This document shows, piece by piece, positions 14,673-23,265 of a stretch of 64,000 nt of DNA. Below the pieces are notes generated by a model that saw only the letters and a program-made list of their open reading frames with translations, did no database searches and was not told the origin of the DNA. How positions within the stretch are numbered: the first letter of the stretch is position 1; each line of letters begins with the position of its first letter. This DNA comes from Chitinophaga pollutisoli. Its GTDB lineage: Bacteria > Bacteroidota > Bacteroidia > Chitinophagales > Chitinophagaceae. The position numbers and the translations under genes were made by a program. Location: assembly GCF_038396755.1 (NCBI RefSeq), contig NZ_CP149822.1, positions 1,116,001 through 1,180,000 on the forward strand, given 5' to 3'.

Positions 14673-17600
14673 TTAGAATGTGATGTTAAGTCCGGCCATG
14701 AAAGTACGCATCACCGGCAACGTCCTGCTGGCATAGGTACTGCCCAGCGTATATGCTTCGGGATCGATGCCCGAGCCGTTACGGAACCAGCTGAACGGAT
14801 TCTGCACCTGCAAGGTCAGCAGGGCCGACTGCAGCTTCGTAACCGGCGCCAGTACTTTCGCGAAGTTGTAAGTCAGCGCGATGTCCCTCACCTTGATATA
14901 ATCGGCCTTCAATACGTTCCGGTCGTTGGCGAACCAGATCAGGTTGTAATACTCGCGGCCGTTGTTCTTCAAATCAGGCGCTGGCAGCATACCCGGAATG
15001 TTCTCATCGCCGGGCTTGCGCCAGAAGTTGATCATCCGCGCATCCACATTCATTCTGCCGAAGTTAGACTGGATGGGGCTTACCACGTCCCTGATCACGT
15101 TACCGCCATTGGCGATGAGCATAATGTTTAGCGAGAAATCCTTGTAAGTAAAGTTATTAGTGAATCCGGTCGTGAATTTCGGGCGCAGCGTACCGTTATA
15201 TACCAAACCGTTCACATCCGTCATGTTCGGCACGATGGCGCCGGACTGGTCGTAATTGGTCACCACTTTCCCGTCCGCGTCGTACACCAAAACAGAGCCG
15301 TTCGTGGGATCAAGCCCTGCATACCGGAAGCTGAATACCGCATCCATGGGATATCCCACGCGGTTTACGCCATAGCCGTTGGTGAGCATGTCGTACCGGA
15401 CGTCGCGGAGATTGATGTCGGTCATCCGGTTCTTATTGAAACTCATCGCCAGCGAACTGCTCCAGGTGAAGTGCTTCCCTTCGATGTTGCGGGTATTCAG
15501 CGACACTTCGTACCCCCTGTTCTGCATGCTTCCGTAATTTATCAGTGCGAAGGGGAAAGCATTGGTAGGGTCGGTCAGTTTTTCGCCGAGCAGATCGGTG
15601 GATTTGCGGAGGTAGTAATCGAATGAAGCCAGAATGCGGTTGTTCAGCACCGCTACATCGATCCCTATGTTCGTAGTGGCTGTCTTTTCCCAGCGGAGGG
15701 TCTTGTTCGGCGGCAGGATGATGCTCGTGGCCATGGCGTTGGTTTCGTTGACAAAATCCGCCTGCGCCTGCAGGAAAGGCCCTACCTGCCGTGCCACATT
15801 ACCGCCCAGGCCGTAAGTTGTGCGGACAACCAGTGTATTCAGCCACTGCAGGTTTTTCATGAAATCCTCTTCCGTTATTCTCCAGCTCGCGCCTACCGAC
15901 CAGAGCGGCAGGTGGCGGTAACGGGGATCGCTGCCGAACAGGTTGGAATCATCCACCCGGGCGCTGCCCGTAATGTTATACCGGGAATTAAAGCTGTATG
16001 CGGCATTGGCGTATGCCGATACGTAGCGTTCTTCCGCATGCCTGAAATTCGTATTGTTGCTGAAATCCCAGAAGAAGGTGCTGCTCAGCGACTGCGTCCC
16101 TTTCAGGCTGCCGAGTACTGTCTCGTCTACCGGCCTGAAGGTGAGATTATTGTCGTTGTAACCCATTTTATACAGCGAAGTGCTGGTATTGAGGATGGCG
16201 CGGCGTTCCATACCTGCCAATGCCGTCAGCCGGTGCCTGGGCGCGATCTCCCGGTCGAAGTTCAGCTGCGCTCGCGCGGTGTAGGAAGTGGAGTTGCCGC
16301 GGGTTTCATAGATCTGTCCCCCTTCTGGCATGTTGAATACGGGGTTTCCCAGGCTATCGAGCGTTACGGCGTCGTTGATGAGGTTTTTCGCGTAATACGA
16401 ATCGCCGGTGTAATGTTCCTTATTGTAAGAAGTACCGCGCTCGGTCTGGTATTTGAGGTCGAGCGAAATGCCCTTGGCGAACTTCACCGTAAACCCGCCT
16501 TGCAGGCGGAAGTAGTTCGACCAGTACGACAAATGGGATTTCTCCATTTCATCGAGCGGGTTGTAAGTTTCGTCGTATAGCCCCATCGCCTTCAGCCTTT
16601 CGATTTCGTAAGGGGATTTCAGCATGGTAAAAGGTGCAAGGCTGCCATCGGCATAACGCATGATCTCGTAAGGCATGTTCCGGTAAAACGATTCCGGCCC
16701 CTGGCGCAGGAATTTCCCTTTGCGGATATTGGTGGTGGCGCCGATCTCGGCATCCAGCCATTTGAAGACTTTCACATTATCGCGAAGGCCGATGTTAATG
16801 TCTTCATTGCTGGTACGCAATCCGTACCCGCTGTTGCCGGTATAGTTCATGAAAATGTTATACCGGTGAATATCATTGCCGCCGCTGGCGGAGAAGCTCT
16901 GGCGGTGTTTGATGCGGTTGCGCATGTACAGGTCTTCCAGCTGGCCCTGCCCGTCGTAACCGCGCAGCTTGTCCAACGTTGCGTCGAGTTCCGCCTTGGA
17001 AATGACGCCCTGTTCATGATCGTAAAGTGCTTCCAGCGCTTTGCTTTTGCCTTCGCGGCGGATGCCGTCGTTGAAAGAAGGATGCCAGGTATTGAAAAGT
17101 TCCTGCTGGATGTCAACCATCTGCCGGGAATTGAGGAAGTTCTGGTAGCTGGCATCGGGCTTCGGCGTCACAAACAACGTGCTGCTGAAATTTACAGTCA
17201 GTTTCCTGGGGCTGCCGGTGCGCGTGGTAATGGAGATCACACCGTTGGCGGCCCGGGTTCCATAGATGGACGCGGCGGCCGCGTCTTTCATCACCGTAAC
17301 GTTCACCACATCGGCCGGGTTCAGGTAGTTGAGATCCCCTTCATACGGGAATCCGTCAACGACATACAAAGGCCGCTGCTCGGCGCGTAACGTCGCCAGC
17401 CCCCGGATATTCACATTCCCGTTCTGCATGAAAAGCCCCGGCACCGTGCCTTCCAGCCGGTCCAGCAGACTCGTCTGCATCCTGGCGCCGATCACTTCTT
17501 CCGTAATAATCCCGAAAGACCCGGTTGCCCGCTCTTTGGGGATCGACTGGTAACCGGTATTGGCCGTCACGTTCAGTTCCGTGAGGGTAGACGTTACGGC

Positions 17601-18227
17601 CGACAGCACCACCGTACCCACCGTCCCCGCTTTCAGCATGGCCTCCGTCACGGCTACCGATTTGGTGGTATACCCAATGAAACTGATGCGCATGACATTG
17701 CCGGCGTTTACCGGCAGCGAAAAGGCGCCGTTCACGTCTGTTATGGCCGAGCGCCCGCCAGCCACCGCGATGGTAGCCCCGATCAGCGGCATGCCCGTAC
17801 TGTCGGCAATGCGCCCGGTAACGGGGGTTTGCTGCACCTGCTGATCGTTTCGCAGGGCTGGATCGTTCTTCGCATACAGGAAAATCGTGTTGTCCGCGAT
17901 CTTGTACTGCAAGGGCTGATCCTTCAGGATCAGGTCCAGGAAGCTCAGCAGCGGCATGTTCTGTACCGATGCCGATACAGCGCCTGCCTGCTGCAGGAGC
18001 TCCGATTTTCCCCACACTACATAACCCGTCTGTTTTTTAATGGTGGCAAATACTTTTTTCATCGGCACTTCCCTTCCCGAAAACGTGACGCTCTGGGAGA
18101 AAGTGCTGGCAGATACATGTAAACAAATGGCAAGAAGGAGAATGCTGGTAAGTTTCATAAGCCGGAGCAATTTGGTCGGGAGCCGGCACGGCATGTCCCA
18201 ACGGCTCCAGAAAGCAGTTTTTTGCAT
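14673..18227 (-). CDS. SusC-type TonB-dependent transducer with STN domain
   Basis: A 1184-residue outer-membrane receptor. After an extended N-region and signal (LTSILLLAICLHVSASTFSQ) residues ~45-115 form a secretin/TonB short N-terminal (STN) domain (VPMKKVFATIKKQTGYVVW ... LSFLDLILKDQPLQYKIA), which in FecA-type systems contacts the FecR anti-sigma factor. A carboxypeptidase-D-like domain follows (VTGRIADSTGMPLIGAT), then the plug (ELNVTANTGYQ, PLYVVDGFPYEG, MKDAAAASIYGTRAANGV) and the barrel, ending FMAGLNITF. The plug junction reads ELNVTANTGYQSIPKERATGSF, unlike the more usual VVVIGYGT form. With the upstream sigma/FecR pair it should sense its ligand and induce its own operon. ATG 18227 gives the usual long N-region of this receptor class; 18290 is a less likely upstream start. 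Confidence 0.93.
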   Translation of the reverse strand: MQKTAFWSRWDMPCRLPTKLLRLMKLTSILLLAICLHVSASTFSQSVTFSGREVPMKKVFATIKKQTGYVVWGKSELLQQAGAVSASVQNMPLLSFLDLILKDQPLQYKIADNTIFLYAKNDPALRNDQQVQQTPVTGRIADSTGMPLIGATIAVAGGRSAITDVNGAFSLPVNAGNVMRISFIGYTTKSVAVTEAMLKAGTVGTVVLSAVTSTLTELNVTANTGYQSIPKERATGSFGIITEEVIGARMQTSLLDRLEGTVPGLFMQNGNVNIRGLATLRAEQRPLYVVDGFPYEGDLNYLNPADVVNVTVMKDAAAASIYGTRAANGVISITTRTGSPRKLTVNFSSTLFVTPKPDASYQNFLNSRQMVDIQQELFNTWHPSFNDGIRREGKSKALEALYDHEQGVISKAELDATLDKLRGYDGQGQLEDLYMRNRIKHRQSFSASGGNDIHRYNIFMNYTGNSGYGLRTSNEDINIGLRDNVKVFKWLDAEIGATTNIRKGKFLRQGPESFYRNMPYEIMRYADGSLAPFTMLKSPYEIERLKAMGLYDETYNPLDEMEKSHLSYWSNYFRLQGGFTVKFAKGISLDLKYQTERGTSYNKEHYTGDSYYAKNLINDAVTLDSLGNPVFNMPEGGQIYETRGNSTSYTARAQLNFDREIAPRHRLTALAGMERRAILNTSTSLYKMGYNDNNLTFRPVDETVLGSLKGTQSLSSTFFWDFSNNTNFRHAEERYVSAYANAAYSFNSRYNITGSARVDDSNLFGSDPRYRHLPLWSVGASWRITEEDFMKNLQWLNTLVVRTTYGLGGNVARQVGPFLQAQADFVNETNAMATSIILPPNKTLRWEKTATTNIGIDVAVLNNRILASFDYYLRKSTDLLGEKLTDPTNAFPFALINYGSMQNRGYEVSLNTRNIEGKHFTWSSSLAMSFNKNRMTDINLRDVRYDMLTNGYGVNRVGYPMDAVFSFRYAGLDPTNGSVLVYDADGKVVTNYDQSGAIVPNMTDVNGLVYNGTLRPKFTTGFTNNFTYKDFSLNIMLIANGGNVIRDVVSPIQSNFGRMNVDARMINFWRKPGDENIPGMLPAPDLKNNGREYYNLIWFANDRNVLKADYIKVRDIALTYNFAKVLAPVTKLQSALLTLQVQNPFSWFRNGSGIDPEAYTLGSTYASRTLPVMRTFMAGLNITF

Positions 18228-18297
18228 AGATTTGCAACGTTTGGTTGTTAAAAATGGAGGTCTCGAAACCTGTTTCTTTGCAACCGGCAATTTTTCT

Positions 18298-18322
18298 ACG
18301 GGGGTGTTCGCAGCACTCCCGT
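18298..18322. promoter_or_regulatory. imperfect inverted repeat in the SusC leader
   Basis: In the 189-base gap between FecR and SusC, ACGGGGGTG / CACTCCCGT form an imperfect stem ~70 bases before ATG 18227, next to a CCGGCCGG palindrome. No U-tract follows on the minus strand. It could be a leader hairpin or an operator; function unknown. Confidence 0.3.
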
Positions 18323-18416
18323 TTCTTTTACCGGCCGGCCTTTCTTTTTAGTTGATCATTAAAAGTCCATGTCCATGTGAAATATTACGTTTTATAGTAT
18401 AGGGATAAATGTTTCT

Positions 18417-19613
18417 TCAAGGCATCACTACCAAACGCCGGCCTTCTTCCAGCCTGAAATGCACGTTCGACCGCTCCAGCCCGCCCAATACGTCGGACAA
18501 CTTCAGTTTCCGGCTCATCTCCCCGAAAAACACCACTTCCGGCACATTTCCTTCGTACACCACTTCCAGGTCGTACCAGCGTGCCAGCTGCCGCATCATT
18601 TCCCGCAGTTCCACCCCATCGAAATTAAACAAGCCGTTCTTCCAGGCGATGGCTTTATCCACGTTTGCGTTTCTCATCACATCCATTCCGCTTCCGTCGG
18701 CCTGCAACTGCTCACCCGGCTTCAGCAACACCGACCCCGTTGGCTTCCCGGCCAGCGCTACCCGCACCGCGCCCGTTACCAACGTGGTATAACTATGCGG
18801 CTCATTGGCATACGCATTAATATTGAACGACGTTCCCAGCACCTCCAGATCGATCCTGCCCGGCACCTTCACGCGGAAAGGCTTCTTCACATCTTTCGCC
18901 ACCTCAAACCAACCTTCTCCGGAAAATTCCACCTGCCGGTCGGCCCCGCTGAATGCCACCGGGAACCGCAGGTAACTGCCGGCGTTGAGCCACACTTTCG
19001 TACCGTCGGGCAAAGTAACCGTAAACTGCCGCCCGTTGGAAGTAGCGATGGTATTGTATTTCACACCGCTTTCACTCCGGTCTTCCGGCTCGTATTGCAG
19101 CGCGCCATCCTGCAGCGTCACCGTAGTGCCGTTTTGCCGGGTAATCACGCCATTGCCGGCACTGTCCAGCGCCAGCTGCGATCCGTCTGCCAGCGTCAGC
19201 ACCGCGCCATTCTTCCCGGGTTCCACATCCTGCGGAAACACGTTGGCGATAACGGTTTCACCCCGCGGCGCCGGGCGGTTCAACAGCCATATGCCTGCCG
19301 CGGCGATCAGCACCGCCGCCGCTGCCCACCACCAGCGTTGCAGAGGATGCACCGTCCGCACTGCGACGGTTTCCGGGGCTGGACGAAGTTTATCCGCACC
19401 CAAAATCCCATCAGCCACCCGCATCCAATGCTGGTGATCGTAGGATGCCTGCACGTCCGGCTGAAGGTCTTCCAGCCTGCGCTCCGCCTCTTCGATACCG
19501 GCGCCGGGCTCGTCGCGGCCCACCAGGGCGGCCAGCTCGTCCAGCTCCGCGTCTGTGGCCGTATGGCCCGCGAGGCGTTGCAGTAAATATTGTAATCGGT
19601 CGTTGTTTTCCAT
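18417..19613 (-). CDS. FecR family anti-sigma factor
   Basis: A 398-residue single-pass inner-membrane protein. Residues ~1-85 are the cytoplasmic sigma-binding part, a hydrophobic segment (WWAAAAVLIAAAGIWLLN) crosses the membrane near 90-110, and the periplasmic part has the FecR domain (VTLPDGTKVWLNAGSYLRF ... VEFSGEGWFEVAKD ... LEVLGTSFNINAY) plus the C-terminal DUF4974 region (MMRQLARWYDLEVVYEG). It should hold the neighbouring ECF sigma factor inactive until the STN domain of the next-gene receptor reports ligand. It follows the sigma gene by 109 bases on the same strand. Confidence 0.93.
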   Translation of the reverse strand: MENNDRLQYLLQRLAGHTATDAELDELAALVGRDEPGAGIEEAERRLEDLQPDVQASYDHQHWMRVADGILGADKLRPAPETVAVRTVHPLQRWWWAAAAVLIAAAGIWLLNRPAPRGETVIANVFPQDVEPGKNGAVLTLADGSQLALDSAGNGVITRQNGTTVTLQDGALQYEPEDRSESGVKYNTIATSNGRQFTVTLPDGTKVWLNAGSYLRFPVAFSGADRQVEFSGEGWFEVAKDVKKPFRVKVPGRIDLEVLGTSFNINAYANEPHSYTTLVTGAVRVALAGKPTGSVLLKPGEQLQADGSGMDVMRNANVDKAIAWKNGLFNFDGVELREMMRQLARWYDLEVVYEGNVPEVVFFGEMSRKLKLSDVLGGLERSNVHFRLEEGRRLVVMP

Positions 19614-19722
19614 GTAAAAAGGGTGTAGTAAACGAATGATGTTTGTCCCCCTTATTTATACCAGACAATCGGGCAAACGGGTAGTACCGAAAAAAGCGAA
19701 ACTTTTTTTGGCAGGGGTAAAA

Positions 19723-20319
19723 TCAAAGCAGGATTTCGATCAGGATGAGGACAGACAATGGATAACCGGCTTTTTGCAGGGAGCCGCGAATGTGCTTCAG
19801 CGCCATGACCATGAGGTTTTTCACCGTACTGTCGGCCAGGCCCATCCGGTCGCTGATTTCGCGGATGCTGAGGGATTGCTCCCGGCTGAGGCGGTAAATC
19901 TGCCGCTGTTTTTCGGGAAGCTGCCGCACGGCGTCATTCACCAGCGCGAGCAATTGCCGGAACTCGACCATTTCTTCCACCGGGAGGTTCTGGTCCAGTT
20001 GCCGCTCATGCCCCACGGCATTCATGACTTTATCGCGGATTTGCTGGCGGCGGACGAGGTTGACGGCCAGGAAGAAGCAGATTTTCTTCACCCAGGATTC
20101 CGGTTGGGCCAGGCCGGTAAGCTGGTCGCGGGCGATCCAGACTTTCAGAAAAGTTTCCTGGACGAGGTCGTCGGCCACTGCGGGCGATCCGGTGATACGC
20201 AACGCCATGGCCAGCAACCGGGGCGCCAGCAGCCCGAAAAGCTGTCTGAACGCGTGCTCGTCGCCGGCTGCGATCCGTTGGTACAATGCTGGAGCGTCAG
20301 TAGTGTGTCCTTCGTTCAA
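19723..20319 (-). CDS. ECF RNA polymerase sigma factor (FecI-like)
   Basis: A 198-residue sigma-70 factor of the extracytoplasmic-function class. Region 2 is visible as GDEHAFRQLFGLLAPRLLAMA and DDLVQETFLKVWIARDQL, and region 4 as LPEKQRQIYRLSREQSLSIREISDRMGLADSTVKNLM. It pairs with the following FecR. No ATG lies upstream: the only start after an in-frame TAA is TTG at 20319, four codons on, so translation probably starts at TTG (a later TTG is possible). A short C-terminal hydrophobic tail (PLSVLILIEILL) is common in Bacteroidota members. Confidence 0.9.
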   Translation of the reverse strand: MNEGHTTDAPALYQRIAAGDEHAFRQLFGLLAPRLLAMALRITGSPAVADDLVQETFLKVWIARDQLTGLAQPESWVKKICFFLAVNLVRRQQIRDKVMNAVGHERQLDQNLPVEEMVEFRQLLALVNDAVRQLPEKQRQIYRLSREQSLSIREISDRMGLADSTVKNLMVMALKHIRGSLQKAGYPLSVLILIEILL

Positions 20320-22784: not shown

Positions 22785-23089
22785 TTTAACAGATACAATA
22801 CACCAAAACAATCCGGTTACTACTCATTTGCAAGCCTGACAACTGAAATGGCCTCCCCGTGAGGCCATTTCCCTTCCCCCACTTCCCCGCATATACGCCC
22901 CGGCAATTCCCGTTCAGTCCTATAGGTTAGCCGATTTCTAACAAACATCTCCTAACAAGCTACAAAATTCATATCCATCAAACAAAAGGATATTTCATTA
23001 GATTATTTCTATTATTATTGACTTTTTATTAGATTTTTGATAACTAAACAAATACTTTGCGTAGATTGCATTCAGTTTCAAAGACACAT
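22785..23089. other. gene-free AT-rich stretch upstream of the tRNA-like RNA
   Basis: After the desulfurase terminator the sequence becomes very A+T-rich (about 22920-23060), as expected of a promoter region. TACTTTG at 23053-23059, about 30 bases before the RNA, is one base short of TAnnTTTG; no well-spaced -33 TTG was found. No ORF is supported. Confidence 0.4.
22846..22870 (+). terminator. terminator of the cysteine desulfurase gene
   Basis: AAATGGCCTC / GAGGCCATTT form a 10-bp stem with a 5-base loop 61 bases past the stop; the T-run is short (TTT then CCC). Confidence 0.65.
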
Positions 23090-23233
23090 TGTAGGGTGAT
23101 GAAACTGGCAGACATGCCCTCTCGTCTCGGGGGTGGAGATAACGGGATAAACGAATAGCATAATTAACTAACCATTTACTTCTTTGTGCTATCCGCTAAC
23201 TGCTCCGTGCAGGTTCGACTCCTGCTCCTACAG
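23090..23233 (+). ncRNA. tRNA-like RNA with ~75-base variable arm and abnormal anticodon loop
   Basis: The stretch folds as a cloverleaf. The acceptor stem TGTAGGG (23090-23096) pairs with TCCTACA (23226-23232). A 3-bp D stem ATG/CAT encloses AAACTGGCAGA, the bacterial tRNA-Leu type with A14 and G18G19. The anticodon stem CCCTC/GGGGG (23117-23133) closes a 7-base loop TCGTCTC. The T arm GCAGG-TTCGACT-CCTGC (23209-23225) has the conserved TTCGA. Between anticodon and T arms are 75 bases (23134-23208), closed by GGAG/CTCC with an inner ATAGCA/TGCTAT stem, far longer than the 15-20 of Leu or Ser tRNAs. Loop position 33 is C rather than U and position 37 is a pyrimidine, so normal decoding is doubtful; read strictly the anticodon would be GUC (Asp). 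Discriminator is G and no CCA is encoded. A perfect terminator follows. It may be a tRNA-derived regulatory RNA, an aberrant tRNA or a decaying gene. Confidence 0.65.
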
Positions 23234-23234
23234 C

Positions 23235-23265
23235 AAAAGCCCGGGAAGTAGTTTCCCGGGCTTTT
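23235..23265 (+). terminator. strong rho-independent terminator after the tRNA-like RNA
   Basis: AAAAGCCCGGGAA / TTCCCGGGCTTTT form a perfect 13-bp stem with a 5-base loop, beginning two bases after the RNA. Because it is symmetrical it can also end the second Lrp transcript arriving from the minus strand. Confidence 0.9.

Follow-up and report, generated by a model that had tools for sequence, protein, structure and literature searches.

The window, by which we mean the whole 64,000-nt stretch of the Chitinophaga pollutisoli genome analysed here, contains on its forward strand a complete type II tRNA cloverleaf (23090-23233) with a 75-nt structured variable arm, followed by a terminator (Table 1). 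A preliminary description of this DNA had reported a 7-bp acceptor stem, a Leu-type D arm, a 5-bp anticodon stem and a TTCGA T loop, and every one of these elements was found in the sequence. The 75-base variable region with its internal stem was recovered as well, and its helices P1-P3 covary across the members of the family presented below. The terminator was indeed a perfect stem downstream of the RNA, but it comprises 14 pairs instead of 13 and starts one base after G73 instead of two. All 185 unique copies have C as that single base (23234 and homologous positions), and a full CCA is mostly not encoded. The anticodon loop UCGUCUC of the window copy places C at 33, GUC at 34-36, U at 37 and C at 38, and in the D arm the second base after G18G19 (20a by our numbering) is A, not U. 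A single-sequence fold of the RNA gave z = -2.41, with 3 of 200 shuffles being equally stable. ARAGORN called no tRNA gene in the window, and the comparison with Rfam 15 that had been proposed yielded no match at gathering score, be it to tRNA, tmRNA or any other family. A sigma-70 scan detected no promoter on the plus strand at the RNA; the TTTG and TACTTTG elements upstream are near what we take to be the Bacteroidota -33/-7 consensus. Elsewhere in the window (14673-20319), a large outer-membrane gene (SusC/TonB-like by eye), FecR-like and sigma-factor-like genes are arranged consecutively.

Table 1 Features of the tRNA-like RNA and its flanks in the window
Feature	Position	Strand	Remarks
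Promoter-like TTTG (23036-23039) and TACTTTG (23053-23059)	23036..23059	+	read by eye
tRNA-like RNA	23090..23233	+	144 nt including G73; R1 covariance model 132.9 bits
Acceptor stem, 5' strand UGUAGGG, 7 bp with 23226-23232	23090..23096	+	U1, G2 and U3 near-invariant
D arm, Leu-type, AUG-AAACUGGCAGA-CAU	23099..23115	+	sequence, covariation
Anticodon arm CCCUC-UCGUCUC-GGGGG	23117..23133	+	stem 23117-23121/23129-23133 (5 bp), loop 23122-23128
Variable region, 75 nt	23134..23208	+	P1, P2, internal loop, P3, tip loop
Variable-region P1	23135-23138/23203-23206	+	covariation across members
Variable-region P2	23143-23145/23200-23202	+	covariation across members
Variable-region internal loop GAUAAA/CUAA	23146-23151/23196-23199	+	
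Variable-region P3, one A-C mismatch, then tip loop	23152-23162/23185-23195	+	by eye here; covariation from other members
T arm GCAGG-UUCGACU-CCUGC	23209..23225	+	stem 23209-23213/23221-23225
Acceptor stem, 3' strand UCCUACA, and discriminator G73 (23233)	23226..23233	+	
Rho-independent terminator	23235..23265	+	14-pair stem, loop of 3

Homologues of this RNA were found by blastn in all 36 genomes of the genus Chitinophaga and in 43 of 59 relatives overall. Across the phylum Bacteroidota, 40 of 395 sampled genomes carried it, and it occurred on 110 stretches of IMG/VR viral contigs. Since the covariance model also matches ordinary tRNA-Leu with up to 61 bits, genomes were scored as RNA-positive at 85 bits or more, counted by hand; the 69.5-bit short form at host locus L309, the only member that looks reduced, was left out, and seven of seven weaker matches checked were ordinary tRNA-Leu. 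A pattern scan of GTDB species genomes gave at least 120 matches, and the 80 listed among them belonged mostly to genera of Chitinophagales, Saprospirales and Cytophagales type and to some Flavobacteriales MAGs, a placement that is in part presumed from general knowledge; four matches under other phyla in this list did not score as members. The first IMG/VR scan returned 100 stretches, of which 99 reach at least 90 bits in the covariance model. The second, the pattern of which did not use the anticodon region, returned 84 new loci with 11 members, among which a 90-nt form has a plain variable arm; the 34 of its loci that were searched later account for two members and lie outside the 64-copy set used below. 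Tandem copies are frequent and paralogs occur. The usual locus of the C. pollutisoli genome is L031 (C1:2854054), and the window copy represents a second paralog.

Existing tools largely pass these genes by. Rfam 15 left the RNA unmatched at nine homologous loci, its sole match being a different tRNA gene in L173. ARAGORN misses most members and calls the short forms alone, as tRNA-Asp (viral loci L186, L200, L216, L221, L232, L260, L264, L265, L324, L326, L344, L359, L365 and L375; host locus L309), so that existing phage annotations may hide further members; two queries against named phage records gave no match. In the parts of the open-access PMC literature consulted, no paper described such an RNA, and a description in subscription papers or preprints is possible. 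The tRNA-like RNA is a widespread, strongly structured family with no Rfam 15 match for the copies searched.

The preliminary description had suggested looking for covariation among homologues, and compensatory changes were indeed present, the variable arm included. In an alignment of 55 diverse homologues (A2; selected from 185 unique copies at no more than 82% identity and 166 nt), 98.6% of the pair cells at 27 pairs were standard and 15 pairs changed on both sides. Two-sided changes amounted to 192 cells; shuffling gave 46.7 on average and slid structures 10-19. Two of the covarying helices form the base of the variable arm and adjoin an internal loop, GAUAAA/CUAA, which most members keep. 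For the outer helix P3, 31 sequences with the tip motif GACCAC (alignment A4; 31 of 38 listed sequences) gave 29 two-sided cells, compared with 8.8 after shuffling and 3-9 for slid structures, the helix having been drawn from looking at these same sequences; many members possess other or shorter variable arms. A mini-ORF, AUGGGUUGA, seen by eye in the tip of the arm was rejected, since it is broken in several members. Pairing of the loop with 16S rRNA was likewise considered and given up. A subgroup of second copies (L001, which is the window copy, L003, L034 and L038) has a changed arm tip with no GACCAC and is found without the usual Lrp gene described below; it possibly constitutes a specialised paralog.

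This pattern bears on two other possible origins, a tRNA pseudogene in decay and a mobile element bounded by TGT...ACA. Tandem copies and paralogs would suit such an origin, and TGT/ACA ends resemble some inverted repeats. We rejected the mobile element since positions 4-7 of the acceptor covary in the manner of stem pairs, and in place of the relaxed pairing without compensatory change of a pseudogene we found strong covariation. Functional bases are near-invariant, L309 alone looks reduced and, at loci that have it, the linked regulator lies upstream in divergent orientation. We regard decay or mobility as extremely improbable.

In 64 unique model-found copies, which derive from 100 loci and overlap the training set of the covariance model, the ends UGU...ACAG as well as G73, G2:C71, U35, C36 and C38 were present without exception, and G34 in 60. 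The pair U1:A72 was seen in 55 of 55 aligned and 64 of 64 model-found copies, G1:C72 in none; the base numbered 20a was A in 242 of 242 cases. Position 37 was occupied by U (54 copies), C (six) or G (four), never by A. U33 was kept in 52 of the 64 copies and replaced by A, C or G elsewhere. Among the 185 unique copies (81 of 302 anchor sites had been dropped for want of an identifiable acceptor and T arm), host copies had it in 115 of 143 cases and viral copies in 42 of 42; the loop counts of this set are partly by construction because the pattern of the GTDB and first IMG/VR scans demands GTC, a pyrimidine at 37 and C38. The earlier statement that the loop breaks the U33 and purine-37 rules therefore holds for the window copy but does not extend to the whole family, as four of the 64 copies (loop UUGUCGC) obey both. 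Four copies have an anticodon other than GUC, namely three in family f28 (CUC, CUC, AUC) and one in genome G377 of family f27 (UUC).

Asp identity has been assigned to G73, G34, U35, C36 and C38, with G2-C71 as a minor element and G1-C72 as crucial in bacteria; amidation of Asp-tRNA-Asn needs U1-A72, and G1-C72 and U20a prevent it in tRNA-Asp (PMC9976931). With five strong Asp elements, G2:C71, U1:A72 and no U20a, the RNA looks chargeable by AspRS and amidatable by GatCAB, and mostly like a poor decoder. Our preferred reading of these sequence features, with a probability of roughly 0.6, is that of a dedicated type II tRNA which would decode poorly or not at all and act as the carrier of a tRNA-dependent asparagine pathway. 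The lack of G1-C72, and hence of one bacterial Asp identity element, counts against a carrier.

The RNA might instead be a slow or specialised decoding tRNA-Asp (GUC) that phages carry in tRNA arrays for translation. It shares G73, G2:C71, G34, U35, C36 and C38 with tRNA-Asp, and its commonest loop, CUGUCUC, deviates from the CUGUCAC of host tRNA-Asp at position 37 alone; ARAGORN, too, labels the minimal forms tRNA-Asp. The high retention of U33, particularly in viral copies, and the four UUGUCGC loops leave room for decoding, which weighs against the carrier reading. Unlike tRNA-Asp, the RNA is of type II with a Leu-like D arm and usually a long structured variable arm, it has U1:A72 in place of G1:C72 and no U20a, its position 33 is variable, position 34 varies in four copies, and 60 of 64 copies have a pyrimidine at 37. 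Four RNA loci (L086, L214, L222 and L230) already contain an ordinary tRNA-Asp gene with G1-C72, U20a and A37, and a decoding function would leave the link to GatB reported below unexplained. A decoding tRNA-Asp is thus very unlikely in our judgement. The idea of a dedicated non-decoding tRNA-like RNA, first put forward from the window alone, gained support from the wide conservation, the compensatory changes in the variable arm, the non-purine at 37 in 60 of 64 copies, the frequent regulator and the terminator; the RNA may never decode.

The regulator in question is a gene of the Lrp/AsnC family, which lies near the RNA in 113 of 168 host loci. Of 125 pairings, with tandem copies counted separately, 124 place it upstream in divergent orientation; in the remaining one, that of the window copy, the Lrp gene is unrelated. 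When loci were recounted with tblastn, 113 of 155 assessable host loci had a divergent Lrp gene no more than 1.5 kb away and 42, each with at least 700 nt of upstream flank, had none (nine short-flank loci were set aside and four chance matches dropped); its absence from these 42 speaks against the carrier reading. The Lrp-less loci include L001-L003, L034, L038 and many of Saprospirales and Cyclobacterium type (e.g., L054, L060, L064, L069, L079 and L092). At 16 further loci the Lrp gene was present in 14 and absent from L298 and L309.

The RNA-linked Lrp proteins form one ortholog group, with 171-323 bits in three RNA-positive genomes tested and no match in two RNA-less genomes of the same family as C. 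pollutisoli; RNA-less genomes of other families had only Lrp paralogs of at most 129 bits, or none. Four RNA-less or reduced genomes, three of family f22 (173-183 bits) and G129 of f28 (162 bits), have kept the Lrp gene with no RNA opposite. At L405, L406 and L407 (f22 genomes G179, G416 and G060), a promoter-like sequence, a short stretch with AATTGGTT and a terminator hairpin can still be recognised by eye, which looks like the loss of the RNA gene with the transcription unit left behind. The preliminary description had seen meaning in the position of the window RNA between Lrp/PLP-enzyme pairs of cysteine and methionine metabolism. This setting turned out to be incidental, since among eight related loci L002 of the close relative G006 alone shares it and the two window Lrp genes are only 22-28% identical to the RNA-linked Lrp.

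Of 149 unique host upstream regions, 28 had a site resembling TTTG-N15-21-TANNTTTG within their last 90 nt, compared with 1.1 in shuffles, and none of 45 viral upstream regions had one. A terminator of its own follows the RNA in 104 of 150 unique host copies versus 5 of 47 viral ones, the latter as expected in tRNA arrays. Where it is divergently placed, the Lrp/AsnC-family regulator may control transcription of the RNA. In E. coli, asnA is regulated by AsnC; there as here, a regulator of the Lrp/AsnC family is divergent from a supposed asparagine-supply gene, but in Bacteroidota this gene is the RNA and not a synthetase.

The Asp identity set combined with U1:A72 predicted a linkage to GatCAB. 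The determinant and the plan of the test were fixed before the first GatB search, and the presence of GatCAB was judged from its GatB subunit. C. pollutisoli itself has GatB, and in the class GatB was detected in 26 of 26 chosen RNA-positive genomes compared with 1 of 19 chosen RNA-negative genomes. Across all 98 genomes of the class, 37 had both RNA and GatB, none had the RNA without GatB, four had GatB without the RNA and 57, a number obtained by subtraction, had neither (Fisher p about 8e-23, uncorrected for shared ancestry). In the family of C. pollutisoli and in f22, where both states are cleanly present, 19 of 19 RNA-positive genomes have GatB and 5 of 5 RNA-negative genomes are without it. 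Overall, GatB was found in 40 of 40 RNA-positive genomes, including three of another class. Outside the class, 278 other genomes have GatB and no RNA; we assume that these use GatCAB in the usual indirect routes.

Among the exceptions with GatB and no RNA, G098 has no GlnRS over the cut-off and would thus need GatCAB for Gln, and G129 holds only a 76-nt reduced form with AUC. Two others, G211 and G259, are unexplained and count against the proposed carrier. In both, which belong to f24, GatB matched at E about 1e-94, and their genus is otherwise without the RNA in our sample; horizontal acquisition of their GatB is possible.

AsnB, AsnA, AsnRS and GlnRS were searched in 51 genomes that we chose from the 395. 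AsnRS exceeded the cut-off in all class members among them and GlnRS in all but G223 and G098; C. pollutisoli has both. Where AsnRS and GlnRS are present, GatCAB is needless for decoding Asn or Gln codons. The C. pollutisoli genome contains no AsnA and nothing above 50 bits for AsnB, and 5 of 26 RNA-positive genomes have neither enzyme over the cut-off. The remaining 21 possess an AsnB-family protein that exceeds the cut-off in one continuous match, and AsnA is present in two, which counts against the carrier reading. An AsnB whose match is split into about 385 and 80 model positions, and which we take to be the E. coli-like form, occurred in 15 of 19 chosen RNA-negative genomes of the class and in none of the 26 RNA-positive ones. 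Within the genus, 23 of 36 genomes have an AsnB-family match over the cut-off and nine have nothing above 53 bits. The RNA pathway may therefore be the sole asparagine source in some hosts and one of two in others. One genome, G075, has none of RNA, GatB, AsnA and AsnB over the cut-off.

A 2014 survey lists Bacteroidetes among 18 genera that have AsnRS, GlnRS and GatCAB and no Asn synthetase, finds U1-A72 in all tRNA-Asn of those genera and supposes asparagine synthesis on tRNA-Asn (PMC4206432). In such a scenario GatCAB would serve the classical route on tRNA-Asn, and the RNA would be a regulator or scaffold, for instance a transamidosome scaffold, for which the extra arm would be suitable, or a competitive sensor. 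We read tRNA-Asn for 20 of 21 RNA-positive genomes (all but G106; base 72 was obtained in all but G172, G247 and G332), and it begins with U1 in 15 of the 20, where the classical route with a non-discriminating AspRS could thus operate. In family f18, however, tRNA-Asn has G1-C72 in four of four genomes (loci L443, L444, L445 and L446 in G219, G235, G121 and G052), and yet GatB, GlnRS and the RNA are kept. As the known rule excludes a G1-C72 tRNA-Asn, the RNA is the sole U1:A72 Asp-type candidate known to us in f18. The tRNA-Asn genes that were read also carry U20a, a reported antideterminant, which the search pattern favoured. A scaffold, in turn, would not need Asp identity elements, and minimal viral forms do without the arm. 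We consider the classical route combined with a regulatory or scaffold RNA unlikely, though it is the rival to be taken most seriously.

The carrier proposed here resembles the tRNA-Asn that serves as GatCAB substrate in Deinococcus, Thermus and Bdellovibrio in its U1:A72 pair and in the expected conversion of Asp to Asn by GatCAB. It differs in that it is not a decoding tRNA-Asn and has an Asp anticodon, so that an ordinary AspRS would suffice, and its product should be free Asn. The f28 copies have lost GUC; G223, the one f28 genome tested, has no GlnRS over the cut-off, AsnA is present and tRNA-Asn has G1-C72, a combination that fits relaxed selection on the Asp step. This explanation does not apply to G377 of f27 with its UUC.

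In 54 of the 100 viral loci of the first scan ARAGORN called tRNAs; in eight of these the RNA itself was the only one, called tRNA-Asp. The occurrence of the RNA in loci with tRNAs speaks for the decoding alternative. One cluster of neighbouring ORFs, present in 58 viral loci, has a representative that matches the PHROG terminase large subunit, and the representative of another, in 37 loci, matches a portal protein. The ten representatives scanned comprised terminase, portal, exonuclease, PhoH-like and thymidylate synthase families and unknowns, and no shared transferase was recognised near the viral copies. We speculate that viral copies keep the asparagine supply running during infection.

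The search for a transferase is relevant to a further possibility, in which an Asp- or Asn-charged RNA would be the donor for non-ribosomal transfer to a lipid, peptide or cell-wall acceptor. In staphylococci, Gly-tRNAs serve peptidoglycan synthesis, and like them the RNA would be a tRNA with weakened decoding features kept for non-ribosomal use; it differs in its amino acid and partner enzyme, in its spread over many families of one phylum and in often having its own regulator. Charging elements that are kept while decoding elements are relaxed in most copies, together with conservation across families, would agree with such a donor. No transferase was recognised among the most-shared neighbour clusters inspected, though, the GatB link would be unexplained unless Asn were the moved group, and viral carriage fits less well. 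Transfer of this kind appears distinctly unlikely to us.

For the carrier of an asparagine pathway we envisage the following sequence of steps. In many hosts, the divergent Lrp/AsnC-family regulator would control transcription of the RNA and tune it to asparagine supply. The transcript would be processed like a tRNA, and the ordinary AspRS would charge it with Asp via G73, G2:C71, GUC and C38. Having U1:A72 and neither G1:C72 nor U20a, Asp-RNA would be a substrate of GatCAB, which would convert it to Asn-RNA. A pyrimidine at 37 in most copies, and sometimes the lack of U33, would keep Asn out of Asp codons. Asn would finally be released from the RNA and used by AsnRS, the weakest step of the scheme. 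The long variable arm might serve GatCAB or AspRS as a docking site or scaffold, a speculative role given that some viral copies are plain-armed.

Extended to the phylum, the model would be that Bacteroidota and their phages employ a stand-alone RNA as a carrier for the synthesis of a free amino acid: AspRS would load Asp, GatCAB would turn it into Asn, the ribosome would be avoided, and the RNA, often beside an AsnC-like regulator, would replace asnA/asnB, with phages carrying spare copies for asparagine during infection. We put forward this broader version more tentatively, at slightly short of even odds. The RNA gives a concrete and testable answer to the retention of GatCAB in Bacteroidetes, as noted in the 2014 survey (PMC4206432), that would do without a relaxed AspRS. 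If true, the model would provide a clear example of a tRNA repurposed as a dedicated carrier for biosynthesis, of which viruses have copies too.
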